DNA of 54,236 bases from Donghicola eburneus (GTDB lineage Bacteria > Pseudomonadota > Alphaproteobacteria > Rhodobacterales > Rhodobacteraceae), in assembly GCF_900115865.1 (NCBI RefSeq), contig NZ_FOXY01000017.1, positions 1-54,236 of the forward strand, read 5' to 3'. The notes under the pieces are model-generated. The model saw nothing but the letters and a program-made list of their open reading frames with translations, had not been told where the DNA came from and did no database searches. Below are positions 1 through 7,730 of the stretch, one piece after another. The position numbers were made by a program, and so were the translations under genes. Each line of letters begins with the position of its first letter. Position 1 is the first letter of the stretch.

Positions 1-660
1 GCTTCATGGACAGCTTCTACGGTCCGATCGGATTTATCACCTCGGTATTGAAGAGGCCGATCAAACATTCGGCGAGTGCATTGTCGTAGGCAGCACCAAC
101 GCTTCCGACAGACAGATCTATGTCTGCATCCGCCGATCAGTCCGTATACTTGATAGACAGATATGGCTAGCCGCGGTCAGGATGGAAAACCAAGCTTTTG
201 TGAGCTGGTGTTTGTCCTTGCCAGATCGCTTGCTCGAATGCGTTGAGAACGAACTGGGTCTTCATTGAAGTCATTGCCCGCCAGCCGACAATTCGCCGCG
301 CAAAGACGTCGATCACAAAAGCCACGCATACAGTGCCTGGCCAAGTGTGCATATAGGCAAAGTCTGACACCCATAGCTGGTTCGGACAGTTCAAGAAGAA
401 GAGACTGTTTACCTTGTCGTCCGGGCACGCTTGCGATGGTGGGCTCATTATTGAGCATCCCAGTGCTACAAGCACAATCGCGAACCGATTGGTCGTGACA
501 ACCTTCTCCCCTCAGACCACACTCCTGACCCCGAAAACCATCATACAAGCTCTCGACAGTACAACGAGCGACGTCTTCACGATCACGACGCAAAACATTC
601 CAAATCTTCCGCGCGCCATAGAGCTTGCGGTTCTCCTACCAGATCGCTTCTATCTTGAGA
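1..660 (-). pseudogene. IS3-family transposase orfB, degenerate
   Basis: Minus-strand translation gives the integrase core in pieces. One frame has KLYGARKIWNVL followed by VARCTVESLYD (about 540-630). Another frame (167-475) has NQLWVSDFAYMHTW, then FVIDVFARRIVGWRA and SLVFHPDRG. The C-terminal SVGSVGAAYDNALAECLIG follows at about 40-105. Stops interrupt it: TAG at 167-169 just after the HPDRG motif, TGA at 137-139, and TAG at 17-19 where the family has Trp in a GPW motif. At least one frameshift near 475 separates the first two pieces. It continues past the window edge and cannot make a functional transposase. Confidence 0.8.
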
Positions 661-689
661 CACAAACAAGCCTCGGACTTTGCCCAGGC

Positions 690-910
690 CAAGGCCCGGG
701 ATGAGTTAGGTCTAGAACCAGGTCGTCTTCGTGCGGCAGAGATTCTTTGTGCCGCAGCCCAGATTCAAGAATTACGCCGAGCTTAATGCTTTGCTCCAAA
801 ACCGCTGCGTGGCGTGGCCAAGGCCAATCCCCAGCTAGACCGCAAGGATCGAATGACTTGGGAGCTGTTCCAAGCGGAGTGCGAGAGCCATTGTCCGTAT
901 GTCGCTACTC
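690..910 (+). pseudogene. IS21-family istA transposase fragment
   Basis: Read in two frames, this piece gives NQVVFVRQRFFVPQPRF followed by KNYAELNALLQNRC, then after a +1/-1 shift near 800 KANPQLDRKDRMTWELFQ and CPYVATLDR. These line up with the region of IS21 IstA proteins that reads VENQV...RFFVP...F..LNAWL..RC...DRTVWE.FE.ER..L.PYV..FDG. A TAG stands where the family has the Glu codon of VENQV. The fragment has neither end of the gene and sits between the two IS3 open reading frames, so it seems to have replaced the start of orfB. The assignment is from remembered family sequence only. Confidence 0.5.
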
Positions 911-917
911 TTGATCG

Positions 918-1286
918 TTAGTCGGCAGGCGATTGCAGCGCAAGCGGCCGAGAGGGGGCTTGAACCGATGGTGCTTCAACTGGCTCACCTAGCTTAGGGA
1001 TATCGTCGGCTTGATGCAGCTCGCGGACCTCTCGTTCCAATTCGCTAAACCGAGCTTTCTTCGCAGCTGTCGCGCGTGGCCCGTCGCGGCCATCGCGTTC
1101 GGCTTGCCGCACCCAAACGCGAAGACTGTTCGGCGAACAGCCCAGTTTCTCTGCGATCGAAGCGAGCGCCGCAAACTCCGGGCTATACTCATCGCGGTGC
1201 TCCATCGCCAACCGAACCGCGCGTTTGCGAAATTCGGGTAAGTATGGCTTCGAGCTTCTTTGTTTTCTGTTCTCCATAACAGGCAA
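918..1286 (-). pseudogene. IS3-family transposase orfA, C-terminally scrambled
   Basis: This is the helix-turn-helix protein that binds the ends of IS3-type elements. Residues 11-70 (YLPEFRKRAVRLAMEHRDE, then SIAEKLGCSPNSLRVWVRQ) are a good match to orfA of the IS3 group that starts MEN(K/R)K. The match runs through the leucine-rich LEREVRELHQADDI up to about residue 96 (position ~999). The remaining 26 residues are unrelated and Pro-rich, where the family would read roughly LRKASAYFA. The tail has therefore been replaced or frameshifted, probably by the event that brought in the IS21 fragment. The start is the ATG of MPVMEN or MEN three codons later. Confidence 0.7.
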
Positions 1287-1671: not shown

Positions 1672-2088
1672 CTAGGCTGCAGCTGCTTTTTGTGCATCAA
1701 TCATGACGCCAGCGAGGACGCCATAGGTTTCGGCCCATGCCTCCTTTACTTCGGGTGTGAAATCGTCACCGAGGCCTTTGCCAAGGGTGAAGAGCAGGGC
1801 CTCGCCAACGTAACCGTAGTGTTCGGGCGTGACTTCGTAGCCGTTATGACGACGGCCTAGGTCTTGGACTGCGGGCAGGATTTCGTCCAGCTTGGTCAGG
1901 CCGTTCACGGCGATGGCCAGCATCTGCATCAGTTTTTTCTTCTGCTCCGACATGTCATCGGGAAAGAGCGGACGTACTTGGGGGGCAAGTTCGAAGAGTT
2001 TGTCATAGAAGATGTCGGCTGCGGGACCAGCGATTGGCGCCACTTTTTTAAAGCTGTCTTGCACGAGGGTGATTTTCTCGGGGGTCAT
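1672..2088 (-). CDS. Single-domain bacterial hemoglobin
   Basis: A 138-residue globin of the Vitreoscilla hemoglobin/flavohemoglobin-head type. It binds oxygen and nitric oxide and may take part in NO dioxygenation with an outside reductase. Visible features are FYDKLFELAPQVRPLF (residues 27-42, with the B10 Tyr position), the segment ending in EHYGYVGEALL whose His at about residue 90 is the proximal heme ligand, and the C-terminal AWAETYGVLAGVMI. The flavin reductase domain of flavohemoglobin is absent. The start at 2088 is chosen because AAGGA lies nine bases ahead; an ATG at 2097 would leave no room for it. It is the last gene of the operon, five bases after the cytochrome c gene, and the NsrR-like regulator upstream fits a role in NO defence. 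Confidence 0.88.
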   Translation of the reverse strand: MTPEKITLVQDSFKKVAPIAGPAADIFYDKLFELAPQVRPLFPDDMSEQKKKLMQMLAIAVNGLTKLDEILPAVQDLGRRHNGYEVTPEHYGYVGEALLFTLGKGLGDDFTPEVKEAWAETYGVLAGVMIDAQKAAAA

Positions 2089-2093
2089 GTCTC

Positions 2094-2537
2094 TCATTCC
2101 TTGTTGTGTTCGATGAAGGCCAGTGCCTCGGCCTCGCCGCCGCTCGCCCAAACCATAAAGGTCACGGCTGCAGCGATCTCTGCGTCGCTTAGGTCGCGGT
2201 TGCCGCCACGGGCCGGCATTTCGGTGTAGGTTTTGCCCACAAAGCCTTGGGTGGCGTGGTCAATCAGAGTGGGCAGCCCCTGAGCGATGCGGGGCTGCCA
2301 TTTCTTGGTTGCGGTGATCTTGGGCGCTCCGGTGGCTTTGTTGCCGCCGTGGCAGGCCATGCAGGTGCCCTCCCAGACTCCTTTGCCCTGAACCAGTGTT
2401 GGGGCGTCTGGTTCGGGCAGCCGGTCGGCAGTGACGAAGCCGTCCAGCCCACGGGTGGACAAAACGTCAGAAAGTGTCACTTCAGCCGCTGCAGGGGCAC
2501 CCGCAAGGAGCGCCGCGCAGATTACCGCACGCCGCAT
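2094..2537 (-). CDS. Class I monoheme cytochrome c (c5 type)
   Basis: A 147-residue exported cytochrome. It begins with a cleavable signal peptide (MRRAVICAALLAGAPAAAE), has one heme site CMACH at about residues 59-63, and the c5-like distal region MPARGGNRDLSDAEIAAAV, whose Met is the likely sixth ligand. It should be a soluble or loosely bound periplasmic electron carrier. The start at 2537 follows GGAG by seven bases and lies only four bases after the stop of the DUF3365 gene, so the two are probably translated together. In context it may carry electrons to or from the 11-heme cytochrome. The partner is inferred, not seen. Confidence 0.85.
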   Translation of the reverse strand: MRRAVICAALLAGAPAAAEVTLSDVLSTRGLDGFVTADRLPEPDAPTLVQGKGVWEGTCMACHGGNKATGAPKITATKKWQPRIAQGLPTLIDHATQGFVGKTYTEMPARGGNRDLSDAEIAAAVTFMVWASGGEAEALAFIEHNKE

Positions 2538-2541
2538 CAGA

Positions 2542-3111
2542 TCACTCCACAGGGATGCGGATAACCACACCGCCCATCACGTCACCGCCTTCGAAGTCGG
2601 TTTTGGGCGAGTCCTTGTGATCGTTGTGGCAAGAGGTGCACGCCTCGGCCACCGCAACGTCGGCGTAAAACGCGGTAAAGTAGTTCTGACCGCCAAGCTC
2701 TTCCTCTCCATAGAAATTCTCGCCGGGGTTATCGACGAGGTACTGAAGCCCCTCTTTTTCGAGGTCGGTTGCTGGAGCGTTCTGCTTGTTGATCGGCCAG
2801 AGCGACAACAGCGAGTACGAGAAAGCATCGGTTTCTTCGGCCACCATCTCCGCGCCAAAGCGGAACATCTGTGCGGGCAGAACCAGCGCTTTTTCATCTT
2901 CGAAGTGCTCGGAGGCGGTGATGACTTTTTCTTTGACCGCCAGTCGGTTGACGATCATGCGGGTGTAGACCGTGCGGTCCGAGGACATAACAAGATGCAG
3001 CAGATCCGCGACTTCTTGCTCTTCCATTTCAGCGTGGACGGCAGTGGCTCCGCTGAACGCCATTGCGCCGCAGAGAAGGACTGCTTTGATTTTTGTTCCG
3101 TAGCTGGTCAT
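2542..3111 (-). CDS. DUF3365 (Tll0287-like) heme c protein
   Basis: A 189-residue exported protein with signal peptide MTSYGTKIKAVLLCGAMAFSGATAVHA (about 1-27), a mostly helical body, and one heme c motif CTSCH near residue 158, followed by KTDFEGGDVMGGVVIRIPV. The spacing and C-terminal glycine-rich strand are those of the DUF3365/Tll0287 family, whose members bind heme c in a PAS-like fold and often form sensor domains or stand-alone periplasmic heme proteins. Here it stands alone, without a kinase or cyclase domain. It lies between the 11-heme cytochrome and the small cytochrome c. A ligand-sensing or electron-carrying role is possible; the sequence does not decide. Confidence 0.75.
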   Translation of the reverse strand: MTSYGTKIKAVLLCGAMAFSGATAVHAEMEEQEVADLLHLVMSSDRTVYTRMIVNRLAVKEKVITASEHFEDEKALVLPAQMFRFGAEMVAEETDAFSYSLLSLWPINKQNAPATDLEKEGLQYLVDNPGENFYGEEELGGQNYFTAFYADVAVAEACTSCHNDHKDSPKTDFEGGDVMGGVVIRIPVE

Positions 3112-3166
3112 AACTATCTCTCCTGTTGGATTATGATTTGGCAGGGGTTTGCGTGGGACCGTGCGT

Positions 3167-4633
3167 TCATTGGTTGGCGCCTTGGTCGGACGGTTCTACG
3201 CGGCTTGTCGCCCAATCGATGCTTTCGATGTGGCGGGATGGTTGGCCCTTGAAGTTGTTTGCGATCAGCGCTGGATCAGCGAGCGCATCAATCGCAAAGC
3301 CCAATCCATGACAGTCTAGACAGACAGAGCGGATCATCTTCTCGTTCGGGCGAAGGTTGTCGTTCTGGTTGTGGTTGGTGACGGCAAAGCCTTTTTTCTC
3401 GGACTGCGGCATGTGGCAGGTCGCGCAGGTCACGCCGGTGCCTGCTAGGGCATTGCCAGTGGTTTCCGCCTGCCAGAGGGCAAAGTGCGGGCTTTCCTCA
3501 TAGCTCTGGCTGTGATCGTCATTGTGGCAGCTAAGGCAGGCTGTGACAGCGGTTTGCTGCGGCTCTTCCTTGTGCGGCGAATGGCACGAGGTGCAGGTCA
3601 TTCCTTGACCATGAGCGTCATCCGACAAATCGACCAAGGCTTCGTCCGTGCTCATCATCGGCGGCGGGGCGGGGTCGTTCAGATAGGCGTTGAGCGCGGT
3701 CACCAAGCCTTCGGGGGCATCTTTCCAGCCGAGAGATTTCAGCTGTTTGCCCGCGTCCCGAGGCTTCGAGATTTTCGAGTGCTGGCGCATCCCGTGACGG
3801 CCCAAGGAGAAGCTCTTGGCGGCGGGCTTGTGACAGTCCGAACAAATGCCCTCTTCGGGGTGGTCGTTCCACGCTTGCTCTTCGGGGGCGTGACAGCTGG
3901 TGCAGGTCACATCCGCCGCAGCGTGGGCGGTGCCCGCCCAATCGTGAGCGATTTCGTCGTCCTGAACCGGCGCATCGAGCGAGGCCAAATAGGTCTCAAT
4001 CTCTTCCGTGCTGCTGGCGCGGGGCAATTGGGGCAGGGCGGCAGCGGCGACCACGGGTTCGTCCATCAGCCACGGTGCGCCTGCATGTTTCACAAGGAAA
4101 TCCTCATAAAGCGCGCGGTTGTCATGGTAGTTGTGGCAGCCCGAAGAGGCACAGGTGTCAAAGGTCAGGTTCGCGTGGCTCTCGCGGTCCTTGCGAATGT
4201 CCTGATCGCCTTCGGAATGACAGGCCACGCAGTAGTCGCCTTGCAGGGTCACCATCATCGGCAGGGTGATTTCCGGCTGGTGCTCGGAATGGCAGGACGT
4301 ACAGAACCGCCCGTCGATCTTTTCCCAGTAGCTGGCCATCCGCGGATTGGTGAATTTCTTTTTCGGGTGGCTGTCGTCGGCCTCTTTCAACTCGTCTTTG
4401 TGGCAAGTCGTGCAGGTCTTGTTGATGTCCTTTTTGATCGCGGCCTGACTGTCGAACGGGTCCGAAGTGTGGCAGGTTTCGCAGGCGATCTCGAGTTGGT
4501 GGTGAGCTCCAGCCGTCTGACCGGGCAGCAAGACCGTCCGGTCGCCGCCGATATAGAGCGCCGCGAAAACCGCGCCTGCGCCGACAAAGGTCAGCAGGCT
4601 CCAGAGCATCCAAAGAAGGGCGTTGCGTGACAT
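3167..4633 (-). CDS. Membrane-anchored 11-heme cytochrome c
   Basis: A 488-residue protein with an N-terminal membrane anchor (residues 5-30) and a large periplasmic part. Ten CXXCH heme motifs start at Cys 51, 74, 111, 135, 244, 264, 347, 366, 403 and 438, and one CX4CH motif (CASSGCH) starts at Cys 161. The first half loosely resembles cytochrome c3/NapC-NrfH-like multiheme proteins. The second half has HFALWQAETTGNALAG and CATCHMPQSEKKGF. I see no CXXCK active-site heme of NrfA type. The stop of the membrane flavoprotein gene lies 12 bases ahead, so the two are very likely co-transcribed. A plausible job is receiving electrons from that protein's b hemes and reducing a nitrogen compound. 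The substrate is unknown. Confidence 0.8.
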   Translation of the reverse strand: MSRNALLWMLWSLLTFVGAGAVFAALYIGGDRTVLLPGQTAGAHHQLEIACETCHTSDPFDSQAAIKKDINKTCTTCHKDELKEADDSHPKKKFTNPRMASYWEKIDGRFCTSCHSEHQPEITLPMMVTLQGDYCVACHSEGDQDIRKDRESHANLTFDTCASSGCHNYHDNRALYEDFLVKHAGAPWLMDEPVVAAAALPQLPRASSTEEIETYLASLDAPVQDDEIAHDWAGTAHAAADVTCTSCHAPEEQAWNDHPEEGICSDCHKPAAKSFSLGRHGMRQHSKISKPRDAGKQLKSLGWKDAPEGLVTALNAYLNDPAPPPMMSTDEALVDLSDDAHGQGMTCTSCHSPHKEEPQQTAVTACLSCHNDDHSQSYEESPHFALWQAETTGNALAGTGVTCATCHMPQSEKKGFAVTNHNQNDNLRPNEKMIRSVCLDCHGLGFAIDALADPALIANNFKGQPSRHIESIDWATSRVEPSDQGANQ

Positions 4634-4645
4634 CTGTTGCCCTCC

Positions 4646-6637
4646 TTAGAACGCGTAACTTGTTAAAACATGGGCGAGGATCAGCAGCGGCAGCGGCCAG
4701 ATCATCACGATATGGGCCCAATTGGGCCAGCGGCGGGCGGGTTTGCGAGCGGTGCCGATGCGGCGCGCGCGCAACTCGTGGTCGCCGCCTGTTGCCAGAC
4801 CGGCTGCCGCGCCAAACACCAGCGTCGCGGCAAAGCTGACAAAGAGCATGAGGTTCAGGTTGTCCCCCGGTCGTAGGCCGGTGTGCACGATTAGTCCAAT
4901 CGCGGCCAAGGCACCAATCCCCAGATGGATCAAACGCCAGCCGTCATAGGATCCAAGCTTATCTATAAAACGCAGACGCTTGCGAAGGCCGATCGCAATC
5001 GCGGCCAACGTGAGCCCCAGCAGGATGAAGCCCGTCCACTGCCGCACGATATTGTCGCGCCACAACCAAACGCGCAGGCTCTCAGCGTCGAAATTGCTGG
5101 GGTAAGGAATGCGCGGTACAAGCGCGACGGTCAAAGCAGCTAATGCGGCCAGTGCGGACAAAACCAGAATGGGGCGATACCAGCGAACGGGCTTGGGGGC
5201 TGCGCCGCTGTTCACCATCTCGTCCAGAAGGGGAACGCAGGTTCCGCAGACCGTGCCAGCACCGGTCGCCGCGCTCAGCGCTTCGGGGGTCTTGGCCCCG
5301 CCCGCCATCGCGTCTCTTAGCCGCCCGCAGGTCACACCGGTGCAGTTGCACACAGTGGCGGCATTCGGCATTTGCGAGATGTCGCCGTCCTCTTCAACCC
5401 AGAGCGACCCGCCGCGCAGGAAACGGCCCACCATCCACGGAAAAATCAACGCTTCGTTCTGAATGGCACTTTGTACGCGACTGGCCTGAGGCCAACTGCC
5501 CACGGCAATGGCCCCGACCAAACGTCCCCCGCGTAGGAAAATTCGGCGATATCCAGTGTCGTCGCGCCAAGTATGGCTGCGGACGTCCGGCGCGACTTCT
5601 AGTTGCTCGACCTGACCGACAGAAAATACGTCTGCGCCGATGACTTTTAGCTTGGTGGTGGGTGTTGAGCCTTGGTAGCGACCATGCTCCCCCAGAATGT
5701 CAGCAACTGCCGCATCAGCTTGTTCATAGCCCGGTCCGACCAGACCATGCACGACGCCGTTGTGTTCGGCACATTCACCAATCGCGTAGATGTCCGGATC
5801 CGAGGTCCGCATTGCATCATCAACGGTGATGCCACGGCTAAAGCTCAGCTCGGCGGTGCGCGCCAGATCAGTTCGGGCGCGGACGCCAGTGCAGATGATG
5901 ACGGTATCACATGGCAGGACTGTTCCATCCGCAAGGCGCACCGACTCGACCCGATGCTCGCCTTCGATCGCTTTGACAGCAACGCTGGCTCACAGCGTGA
6001 CGCCAAGCTCTAGAATTTTCTCGGCCAACAGCGCGCCGCCCTCTTCATCAAGCTGACGGGGCATGAGCCGGTTTTCGTGCTCGACTACGGTGACTTGGGC
6101 CTGCCGCTGCTGCATGCCGCGTGCGGCCTCAAGGCCCAAGAGACCACCACCGATCACAACGACGCGCCGGGCGCTGATACTCCGCGCCATCAGGGCCGAC
6201 GCGTCCTCGGCCGAGCGGAATGTGAATACACCGGGCAGATCGCGTCCCGGGACCCCGGGGATAAAGGCCCGCGAGCCCGTCGCGATAATCAGTTTTTCAT
6301 ATGGCCAGATTTGCCCGTCGGCGGTCGTCACAAAACGTTGCGCACGGTCGATGGATTTCGCACGCATTCCGGTGAGGAGACGCAAATCCTGTTCGGGGTC
6401 ATCAAATCCGGGAGTGACAATCTCACCGAACTGCACCGCGCCCGCAAGAAGAGGCGTAAGCTTGACGCGATTGTAAGGCTCGAACCGTTCTGTCGATAGA
6501 ACTGTCACTGCGAGCCCGCGTTTCGCCAAAAGCGTCGCGGCGCGCGCACCCACTGGGCCGCCTCCGATCACCACAATACGGGAGCGAGCGGACTCAATTA
6601 GAGGGTGTTCTTCGGTGAGGGCTGGCTGTGCTGGCAT
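4646..6637 (-). pseudogene. NirB-like flavoprotein fused to BFD [2Fe-2S] and a diheme-b membrane domain, one in-frame TGA
   Basis: Two same-frame reading frames (5990-6637 and 4646-5941) form one 663-residue protein split by TGA at 5990-5992. Residues 20-330 are an FAD/NAD(P)H oxidoreductase of NirB/nitrite-reductase-large-subunit type (VVIGGGPVGARAA, second nucleotide site VVVIGGGLLGLEAARGM, later IYAIGECAEH). Next is a BFD-like [2Fe-2S] domain with Cys 430, 432, 464 and 467. Then come about five membrane helices. Two helices each carry a pair of His 14 residues apart (571/585 and 642/656), the pattern of two stacked b hemes. The siroheme part of NirB is missing. The TGA stands where the family has Gly in L-G-A, so GGA to TGA is the simple explanation. 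It is the first gene of the operon. Confidence 0.75.
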
Positions 6638-6964
6638 TTCACTCGCAAGGGTTTGGTCGTGGAAGTTCCACGCCGCTTCGTGCGCCCATAAGGCGCAGGG
6701 AAATCAACATAAATTCGGGACGAACGTTGTCTCGGAAGCGGCCAACCTCGTTGTCAGCACATTCTTGATGCTACATCAGGTTGAACAAACGAGAACCTTT
6801 TTCTGTACTGCAGCTGAATAAGAGGCATCGCACGGGGGCCTCCGGGCCGCCTTGGTGAATTTCTATACATTCATTTTGGGTGAATGATTAAATCTGGTGC
6901 GGTGTGTGAATGGTGGCCGGCTGCTGAAGTGCGAGTACGGCCCGAATCCAGATGGCTCCGCGGA
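6638..6964. promoter_or_regulatory. Control region between nsrR-like gene and the heme operon
   Basis: No gene is seen in these 327 bases. Two palindromes stand out. TGATG-CTA-CATCA lies at 6766-6778. It resembles an FNR/Dnr site but has one base too many between the half-sites. CATTCA-N7-TGAATG lies at 6868-6886 within an AT-rich patch. The operon starting at 6637 must be transcribed from here toward lower coordinates, so both lie in a suitable place for an NO-responsive operator. Which one, if either, is bound by the NsrR-like protein cannot be told from the sequence. Confidence 0.45.
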
Positions 6965-7393
6965 TCACTCGCCGCCTGTCAGCGACAATATATCGATCGC
7001 TTTGGGGTTCCGCGCGATCACTTGCTCAACCGTGTAGTTGTCCAGCACTCGAAAGAAGGCTTGCTTCGCCTCTGACATGATGCAGATCAGCCCGCATTCA
7101 GGCGCAAGAATACAGGACGAGCAATCGACCAAAGCTTGGCCGCCCTCCGTATGACGTACAATTTGTCCCACGGTCAGCTCCGATGGCGAAATGGCAAGCC
7201 TAATGCCGCCAGTGCGTCCTCGCACAGACTCAAAGAAGCCTGCGCCAACCAGATCAGTGGTGAGCTTCATGATATTTCCTTGCGGCAGGCCATACACTTT
7301 GACGATCTCCGAAATCTGCACCAAGCGCGCTTGATTGATCGCAAGGTAGAGGCTGACCCTTAGGGCATAATCCGAATAGCGCGTAAGTTTCAT
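6965..7393 (-). CDS. nsrR: Rrf2-family regulator, NsrR-like nitric-oxide sensor
   Basis: A 142-residue winged-helix protein. Residues 1-60 are the Rrf2 DNA-binding part (MKLTRYSDYALRVSLYLA, then GLPQGNIMKLTTDLVGAGF and SVRGRTGGIRLA). The cluster-binding segment VDCSSCILAPECGLICIM has Cys 91, 94, 100 and 104. With the following FRVLDNYTVEQVI this is much closer to NsrR than to IscR or RirA. NsrR proteins hold an Fe-S cluster that NO destroys, which relieves repression. It points the same way as the heme operon that starts 327 bases downstream, and that operon ends in a hemoglobin gene, a common NsrR target. Target assignment is inference. Confidence 0.8.
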   Translation of the reverse strand: MKLTRYSDYALRVSLYLAINQARLVQISEIVKVYGLPQGNIMKLTTDLVGAGFFESVRGRTGGIRLAISPSELTVGQIVRHTEGGQALVDCSSCILAPECGLICIMSEAKQAFFRVLDNYTVEQVIARNPKAIDILSLTGGE

Positions 7394-7655: not shown

Positions 7656-7730
7656 TGGCTGGGGTGGTAGGATTCGAACCTACGGTGCGCGGTACCAAAA
7701 ACCGGTGCCTTACCACTTGGCTACACCCCA
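7656..7730 (-). tRNA. tRNA-Gln (UUG anticodon)
   Basis: The minus strand folds as a full cloverleaf. The acceptor stem starts UGGGGUG at 7730 and pairs with the CACCCCA end. The D arm contains AGCCAAGUGGUAAGGC, the anticodon loop UUUUGGU gives UUG, and the T arm is GGUUCGAAUCC. The CCA end is encoded (7656-7658). The 75-base length includes CCA. The 262 bases between this gene and the nsrR start hold nothing I recognise. Confidence 0.95.

Follow-up and report, generated by a model that had tools for sequence, protein, structure and literature searches.

What does an operon do that places a membrane flavoprotein, an 11-heme cytochrome c, a DUF3365 heme protein, a monoheme cytochrome c and a globin next to a regulator of the Rrf2 type? 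The question is raised by a 54,236-nucleotide stretch of DNA (the window) from the marine bacterium Donghicola eburneus. An initial annotation, made from the sequence alone, had proposed that electrons pass from NAD(P)H through FAD, a [2Fe-2S] cluster and two b hemes to the multiheme protein, which would reduce NO, nitrite or hydroxylamine. The reading we arrived at, plausible though short of probable, is that of a relay that responds to NO and moves electrons from NAD(P)H through the inner membrane to the periplasm, with the 11-heme protein (Mhc11) as presumed conductor.

Operon layout and the interrupted flavoprotein

The operon lies on the minus strand (7393-1672) in the order Rrf2 regulator, flavoprotein, Mhc11, DUF3365 protein, cytochrome c and globin (Table 1). 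The spacing between the regulator and the operon is 327 bases, and the gaps from flavoprotein through globin are 12, 55, 4 and 5 bases; the five-gene order and the gaps of 4, 5, 12 and 55 bases claimed initially were thus recovered on the minus strand. The conservation of gene order and domain content is evident from the comparison of loci, and the order appears to be more than chance, because it recurs across many genera.

Table 1. Features of the operon in the window (positions of the whole stretch)
Feature	Position	Strand	Basis or remark
Single-domain globin, 138 aa	1672..2088	-	Pfam Globin 2.9e-16; no signal peptide by eye
Monoheme cytochrome c, 147 aa	2094..2537	-	Pfam Cytochrome_CBB3 3.4e-12; signal peptide by eye
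DUF3365/Tll0287-like (sCache_heme) monoheme protein, 189 aa	2542..3111	-	Pfam PF11845 4.2e-21; signal peptide by eye
Mhc11, 11-heme cytochrome c, 488 aa, N-terminal hydrophobic helix	3167..4633	-	heme motifs, alignment of relatives
Mhc11 C-terminal domain, residues 206-488, hemes 6-11	3170..4018	-	homologous to ONR/HAO/NrfA superfamily by alignment
Flavoprotein gene, coding for NirB-like FAD/NAD(P)H, BFD [2Fe-2S] and C-terminal membrane domains	4646..6637	-	domain search; broken by in-frame TGA
Membrane domain, 190 aa, four invariant His (98, 112, 169, 183 of domain)	4649..5218	-	read as putative two-heme b-type cytochrome
In-frame TGA, codon 216 of flavoprotein	5990..5992	-	13/14 fetched relatives open here
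Candidate operator TCATTCA-N7-TGAATG between regulator and operon	6868..6887	.	conserved palindrome
NsrR-type Rrf2 regulator, 142 aa, Asp8 and Cys91/94/100	6965..7393	-	Pfam Rrf2 96 bits; alignment to S. coelicolor NsrR 5n07

The operon, its gaps and its heme count stood as first described, and so did the conserved flavin, [2Fe-2S] and membrane domains of the flavoprotein; its description as one protein did not, as the TGA at codon 216 divides the frame, leaving 215 codons on one side and 447 on the other. In 13 of 14 relatives from other genomes the frame stays open over its full length (661-671 aa; 91% identity in the nearest), while the fourteenth (genome G008, locus L047) carries a deletion fusing the flavoprotein with Mhc11. 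The intact relative of locus L048 (663 aa) carries both the FAD and BFD domains. The dN/dS values against the sister sequence are 0.05 and 0.06 on either side of the TGA, and any loss of flavoprotein function would accordingly be recent. Because of the interruption, the window's copy of the operon may not work, unless the TGA is a sequencing error.

The membrane domain gave no family match over the cut-off and no PDB sequence naming it. Its four His are present in 79/79, 79/79, 79/79 and 78/79 rows, that is, in every row covering the site, which supports the two b hemes postulated earlier; with helix placement and heme binding judged by eye, the domain may be a two-heme b-type cytochrome. The route from NAD(P)H over FAD, [2Fe-2S] and two b hemes to the multiheme protein fits the conserved domains.

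Distribution, regulation and ligand-binding partners

Relatives of Mhc11 were found in 13 of 394 genomes of the family, D. eburneus included; the search matched 40 genomes, from which 27 weak matches (E 8e-10 or worse) were left out of the count. Within the genus, four genomes were sampled and one had no Mhc11 match. By tblastn (E <= 1e-3), 386 stretches in named genomes encode an Mhc11 relative, of which the best 80, many metagenome-assembled and some near-copies, were kept, and the following counts refer to these. Alignment A2 comprised 64 rows, P0004 plus 63 loci, and alignment A3 comprised 62; in the heme count L096 was dropped (internal stop), and L099, L103 (11 CXXCH) and L117 (partial) deviate.

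The recurring core consists of the membrane domain with its four invariant His, the 11-heme protein and the DUF3365 (sCache_heme) protein. It occurs in form a (31 loci), with an NAD(P)H-flavin-[2Fe-2S] front end and usually a globin, and in form b (44 loci, one clade), where the front end is GPP34 (GOLPH3-like) and the globin is missing; five loci (L077, L085, L094, L114 and L117) were placed in neither. The link between flavin and globin rests on one evolutionary switch. Cytochrome c is encoded in 22 form-a loci and globin in 28; cytochrome c is absent from the other 9 of 31 and from 44/44 form-b loci, yet the DUF3365 protein is present in 71/75. A strict co-occurrence of the five genes with nsrR, as raised by the initial annotation, fails: among the 31 flavoprotein-type loci, all five genes occur in 20 and NsrR is adjacent in 4.

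An Asp8-type Rrf2 regulator stands, as alignments indicate, beside some operons of both forms, the adjacent regulators numbering 4/31 in form a and 6/44 in form b (four of the six, L080, L081, L112 and L116, being near-copies). With the NCBIfam models the window's regulator scored 103 bits for NsrR (equivalog cut-off 182) and 101 bits for RirA, both under the cut-off. Its D8, C91, C94 and C100 align with the [4Fe-4S] ligands of ScNsrR (5n07; ligands from excerpts of PMC5411485). RirA has a conserved Asn at residue 8, and the Asp8 ligand separates NsrR from RirA (PMC10510648, excerpts); as Asp8 was found in 12/12 operon-adjacent Rrf2 regulators, the window's included, a RirA identity was rejected, and the NO-sensor label given at the outset is favoured. 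The RirA model scored above NsrR in two of the four regulators scanned (L080 by 26 bits, L048 by 4), and a distant Rrf2 gene, 4.8 kb from the Mhc11 gene of L069, has Asn8. In L127, an Rrf2 gene lies 7.7 kb from Mhc11 on the opposite strand.

Where the regulator stands upstream (form a), a conserved palindrome precedes the operon and is a candidate operator: it was found at the same place in 6/6 loci whose adjacent regulator lies upstream as in form a, with 0-1 mismatch, and in the window's genome the operator is the only exact match among the matches listed. In form b, two regulator-bearing loci were scanned, L073 and L080, and neither showed a palindrome upstream.

The DUF3365 protein scored 76.3 bits with PF11845 (cut-off 24.1), and its relatives have CXXCH in 75/75 rows reaching the motif (L082 is cut by the contig end). 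The 75 rows that have the motif show no Cys in the 120 residues ahead of it or after it, and so lack the axial Cys of redox-type sCache_heme proteins. As M82, invariant in 76/76, sits close to the site of the missing Cys, His/Met ligation may close the heme; NO-binding members of the family are characterised by a labile or open sixth site and by slow NO release. In the sCache_heme preprint, the stand-alone member was redox-like and its C59A variant still lost NO fast; the preprint's main text does not contain the words 'multiheme' or 'genomic neighborhood'. Both DUF3365 and multiheme occur in PMC9230427, where, in the parts examined, a DUF3365 protein is named in a table only.

The nearest solved chains to the globin are 3s1i/3ubc, with hemoglobin 1vhb and flavohemoprotein 1gvh also matched. 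Its Y28, Q49 and H81, which we take to be the B10 Tyr, E7 Gln and proximal His of NO-dioxygenase-type globins, are invariant in 13/13 globins, in agreement with the NO-linked hemoglobin first suggested.

Mhc11 as conduit or reductase

The 11 heme motifs of Mhc11 (10 CXXCH and one CX4CH) agree in number with the initial count, and its C-terminal domain is, as judged from alignment, homologous to the superfamily of octaheme nitrite reductase (ONR), HAO and NrfA. This homology of the C-terminal half, the NsrR-type regulator and globin in the operon, and the invariant H383, which adjoins a stretch aligned with the active-site His stretch of NrfA, all favour the original proposal that Mhc11 itself, supplied with electrons from NAD(P)H, reduces NO, nitrite or hydroxylamine in the periplasm. 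However, the catalytic heme motif CXXCK was found in 0/80 relatives, and between the aligned paired ends there are two hemes, two fewer than the four in ONR, whose heme order and numbering we presume here. There are 32 residues between motifs 9 and 10 and 46 past heme 11, versus 68 and about 161 in NrfA L137. Full membership among the ONR/NrfA enzymes was rejected on the missing CXXCK, the two fewer hemes and the absence of both the active-site loop before the CHMP heme and the long C-terminal part. Moreover, 11 invariant non-motif His are available for 11 hemes, although OcwA shows that a His can sit above a heme that is open (PMC6703420, excerpts). This relative, which lacks CXXCK and whose hemes include open ones, still reduces nitrite, slowly (PMC6703420, excerpts), and some NrfA clades use CXXCH instead of CXXCK (PMC8840924, excerpts). 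On balance, reductase activity of Mhc11 is unsupported and rather unlikely; for a protein that lacks both a CXXCK heme and a C-terminal helical domain and is two hemes short, a conduit seems the better reading than the proposed enzyme.

Other destinations for the electrons can be imagined. A respiratory bypass independent of quinone and bc1, passing electrons from NAD(P)H through the monoheme cytochrome c to terminal oxidases when NO or other stress damages the chain, would suit the built-in path from cytosol to periplasm, the cytochrome c of 22/31 form-a loci and the presence, in 14/14 genomes tested, of two or more strongly scoring heme-copper oxidases; we consider it distinctly unlikely, as cytochrome c is so often missing where DUF3365 is kept and an 11-heme conduit seems excessive. 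Reduction of ferric iron or another extracellular acceptor under an iron-type Rrf2 regulator is very unlikely: the higher RirA scores in 2/4 regulators and the matches of Mhc11 to cytochrome c3-type families (8/64 also to the MtrC/MtrF model) point towards it, while Asp8 in place of RirA's Asn8 (PMC10510648, excerpts), the globin, and the lack of an outer-membrane porin or surface cytochrome among ten neighbouring proteins covered by a general, not porin-specific, scan led us to reject an extracellular metal reductase. That the operon is dying in the window's own genome, with a real TGA and a copy that no longer works, is quite improbable; the TGA, the gene-joining deletion in the related genome G008 and the one genus genome lacking Mhc11 are consistent with it, and against it stand the low dN/dS, which would make any loss recent, and the chance that the stop is a sequencing error.

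The proposed relay and known systems

From the earlier interpretation, the relay retains the electron route and the NO-sensor label, and drops the reductase role of Mhc11 and the strict co-occurrence. NO would attack the regulator's cluster and so switch the operon on. Electrons would then pass from NAD(P)H through FAD, the BFD [2Fe-2S] cluster and the two b hemes of the membrane domain to the 11 c hemes of Mhc11, a presumed ONR-family derivative that, having lost the catalytic heme, would act as conduit and electron store and not as a nitrite, NO or hydroxylamine reductase. Mhc11 may keep the sCache_heme protein reduced, and likewise the monoheme cytochrome c in loci that encode it. The ligand-binding ends would be the sCache_heme protein in the periplasm, whose heme without the redox-type axial Cys is the likeliest point for NO or another small ligand to meet the relay, and the globin in the cytosol, a putative second, NO-dioxygenase-like arm probably drawing electrons from the same flavoprotein.

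Several observations count against the relay: the invariant M82, the C59A result, the sparse adjacent regulators, the higher RirA scores and the Asn8 near L069, and further the missing form-b palindrome, the single evolutionary switch behind the flavin/globin link, the nitrite reduction by OcwA (PMC6703420, excerpts) and the interrupted flavoprotein. There is also little sign of endogenous NO, given that NirK over the cut-off is absent from 13/14 genomes tested and a third, NorB-like heme-copper oxidase (our interpretation of third COX1-family matches at 243-255 bits) from 12/14; most of the tested hosts lack a NorB-like NO reductase.

A bolder view, which we hold to be rather unlikely, is that of an undescribed trans-envelope nitrosative-stress system, in which a membrane b cytochrome, an 11-heme conduit (a nitrite-reductase fold minus the catalytic heme) and a periplasmic NO-binding heme-Cache protein are powered by an NAD(P)H/NirB-like front end or, in one clade, via a GOLPH3-like (GPP34) domain. 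A wire that was once a multiheme enzyme would then feed a former sensor domain turned enzyme or scavenger. If the relay holds, there would be a conserved, NO-controlled route by which electrons from NAD(P)H cross the inner membrane to reach a multiheme wire, a physiological partner for some stand-alone heme-Cache proteins, and an example of how a nitrite-reductase fold can become a conduit. The fusion of a GOLPH3-like domain to a membrane domain with four invariant His is an odd case in itself. Cultured relatives (Donghicola tyrosinivorans, Actibacterium, Thalassococcus) would allow a direct test of the relay function, and the operon is intact in D. tyrosinivorans DSM 100212 and Actibacterium ureilyticum LS-811. 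Literature searches, covering part of the matching papers, found no description of such a system and did not contradict the initial statement to that effect.

Among known systems, MsrPQ, NOX and ferric reductases carry electrons from a cytosolic flavin via membrane b hemes to the opposite side. The flavoprotein would follow the same overall route, with no sequence relation shown and with an 11-heme c protein as acceptor in the operon. Its likeness to NirB, the large subunit of NADH-nitrite reductase, covers the FAD/NAD(P)H and BFD domains (model positions 1-198 and 213-467); beyond 467 the model of 794 positions, with its C-terminal siroheme reductase part, is unmatched and the membrane domain follows instead, and plain NirB was rejected. 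From ONR/HAO/NrfA, Mhc11 differs further by an extra domain at its N-terminus, which holds five hemes and a hydrophobic helix. The titles for OcwA and for the undecaheme cytochrome 6qvm describe them as cell-surface proteins, and the excerpts mention no flavin/b-heme membrane partner such as that in the operon. The DUF3365 protein resembles sCache_heme (DUF3365/Tll0287) proteins in PF11845 and CXXCH but, unlike the redox-type members, has no axial Cys, and it sits in a multiheme operon. The globin shares Y28, Q49 and H81 with single-domain globins and the globin domain of Hmp; whereas Hmp has its reductase fused, the operon globin has none, and the operon flavoprotein may serve instead.

Layout of the operon and its interrupted flavoprotein gene

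We consider the operon to represent a real, conserved electron-transfer module, which on the searches made is apparently undescribed in the literature, and which has a swappable front end and, adjoining some copies, an NO-type regulator. The order of the six genes and the gaps between them were borne out as given in the initial annotation, all on the minus strand (see table).

Features of the operon and its surroundings (window positions)
Feature	Position	Strand	Remark
tRNA-Gln (ttg)	7656–7730	minus	upstream of regulator
Rrf2 regulator, 142 aa	7393–6965	minus	
Flavoprotein gene	6637–4646	minus	327 bases past regulator
11-heme cytochrome c (Mhc11)	4633–3167	minus	
DUF3365 protein	3111–2542	minus	
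Cytochrome c	2537–2094	minus	
Globin	2088–1672	minus	
Transposable-element remains (integrase core, HTH_Tnp_1 pieces)	167–1286		between operon and contig end

That annotation missed that codon 216 of the flavoprotein gene is TGA (5992–5990). Fourteen relatives were retrieved from other genomes: 13 have a full-length open frame, and in the fourteenth, G008 (locus L047), a deletion fuses the flavoprotein with Mhc11. The two parts of the gene that flank the stop give dN/dS values of 0.05 and 0.06 relative to the nearest sister, so the TGA is either a recent loss or a sequencing error. Values of dS against the sister genome's locus (L034) are uneven across window positions 4633–1672 and the flavoprotein gene, at 0.26–0.47 for Mhc11, DUF3365 and cytochrome c and about 1 for flavoprotein and globin, as if the middle tract of the operon had been exchanged. 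The G008 deletion lies at about 9530–9660 of L047, where the flavoprotein runs into the latter half of Mhc11; the regulator and the genes for DUF3365, cytochrome c and globin are retained despite it.

Distribution and two forms of the module

Of 394 genomes from the family, 13 (its own counted, G008 partial) encode a clear relative of Mhc11 (E below 1e-100), as do three of the four sampled genomes of the genus; at E ≤ 1e-20, the counts were 4/385 for the class and 3/398 for the phylum, own genome included. A scan of named species genomes gave 386 stretches encoding a relative, and the locus counts below cover the best 80 of these, a Donghicola tyrosinivorans contig among them. Of those 80, 78 encode the membrane domain and 75 the DUF3365 protein. 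Ahead of Mhc11, 31 loci carry a NirB-like FAD domain followed by the membrane domain (form a), and 44 have a GPP34 (GOLPH3-like) domain in its place, joined to a membrane domain of the same type (form b; GPP34 E-values of 7.5e-37 to 2.6e-41 for the three scanned); the remaining five were assigned to neither. All form-a loci have DUF3365, 28 globin and 22 cytochrome c; all five genes occur together in 20, and with the regulator in four. DUF3365 is present in 40 of the 44 form-b loci, and globin and cytochrome c in none. That the flavin domain and the globin are missing together suggests a partnership between them, but this is one event: all 43 form-b rows lie beyond a single branch (support 100/100) of the Mhc11 tree, so that one front-end swap is enough.

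The fusion of GPP34 with the four-histidine membrane domain occurs in 44 of the loci L070–L122 (e.g. L083:8810–9985 and L106:8810–9985), and a literature search for GPP34 together with multiheme found no paper. The module is present twice or three times in several genomes (L074/L082/L083, L091/L100, L070/L096, L088/L089, L095/L118, L094/L117), as form b wherever the form is clear; L094 and L117 end at contig ends.

Regulator and genome context

By NCBIfam the choice between NsrR and RirA is undecided, every score being under both cut-offs, with RirA scoring above NsrR in two of four regulators scanned. Residue 8 does tell the two apart: in NsrR it is an Asp that serves as a cluster ligand, and RirA has Asn there (PMC10510648). 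Aligned to solved NsrR, the window's regulator matches Asp8 and all three Cys. Asp8 is present in 12/12 regulators adjoining operons: six stand by form-a operons, those of the window and G008 among them, and six by form-b operons, where four are near-copies; a more distant Rrf2 gene near the L069 operon has Asn8. Asp8 in the adjoining regulators is the best evidence for a link to NO. An inverted repeat, TCATTCA-N7-TGAATG, occupies the same position in all six form-a loci with an adjacent regulator, did not turn up in any further locus scanned, two form-b loci with a regulator among them, and in the window (6868–6887) is the sole exact match in the genome among the matches listed.

All 14 genomes tested, each of form a, encode at least two strong heme-copper oxidases. 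A third with a NorB-like score occurs in two, the window's not among them, and NirK exceeds the cut-off in one; with both so scarce, the module is not tied to denitrification in these genomes.

Proposed electron route and the DUF3365 protein

The NAD(P)H-to-periplasm route initially proposed is well supported as far as Mhc11, whereas the reduction of NO, nitrite or hydroxylamine assigned to Mhc11 is unsupported. Our best guess is a relay against NO, which would deliver electrons to the periplasmic sCache_heme (DUF3365) protein, with the globin forming a cytosolic arm. The globin retains the Tyr-Gln-His set typical of NO-dioxygenase globins, and its nearest solved relatives are chains 3s1i and 3ubc. 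DUF3365 is the most conserved of the three proteins compared, with a median identity within form a of 72.5% (Mhc11, 58.3%; membrane domain, 55.3%) and between forms of 60.4% (51.9% and 36.6%, respectively).

A preprint of 2026 gives DUF3365 proteins the new name sCache_heme and describes a stand-alone, Cys/His-ligated member as redox-like, its C59A variant still losing NO fast, and a Cys-less, HAMP-linked member as binding NO tightly (PMC12889525). The operon's protein is stand-alone, like the redox-like one, but its mature part has no Cys beyond the heme motif, and an invariant Met82 lies near the place of the missing residue; judged from these residues, its heme could therefore either be accessible to NO or have its site taken up by Met.
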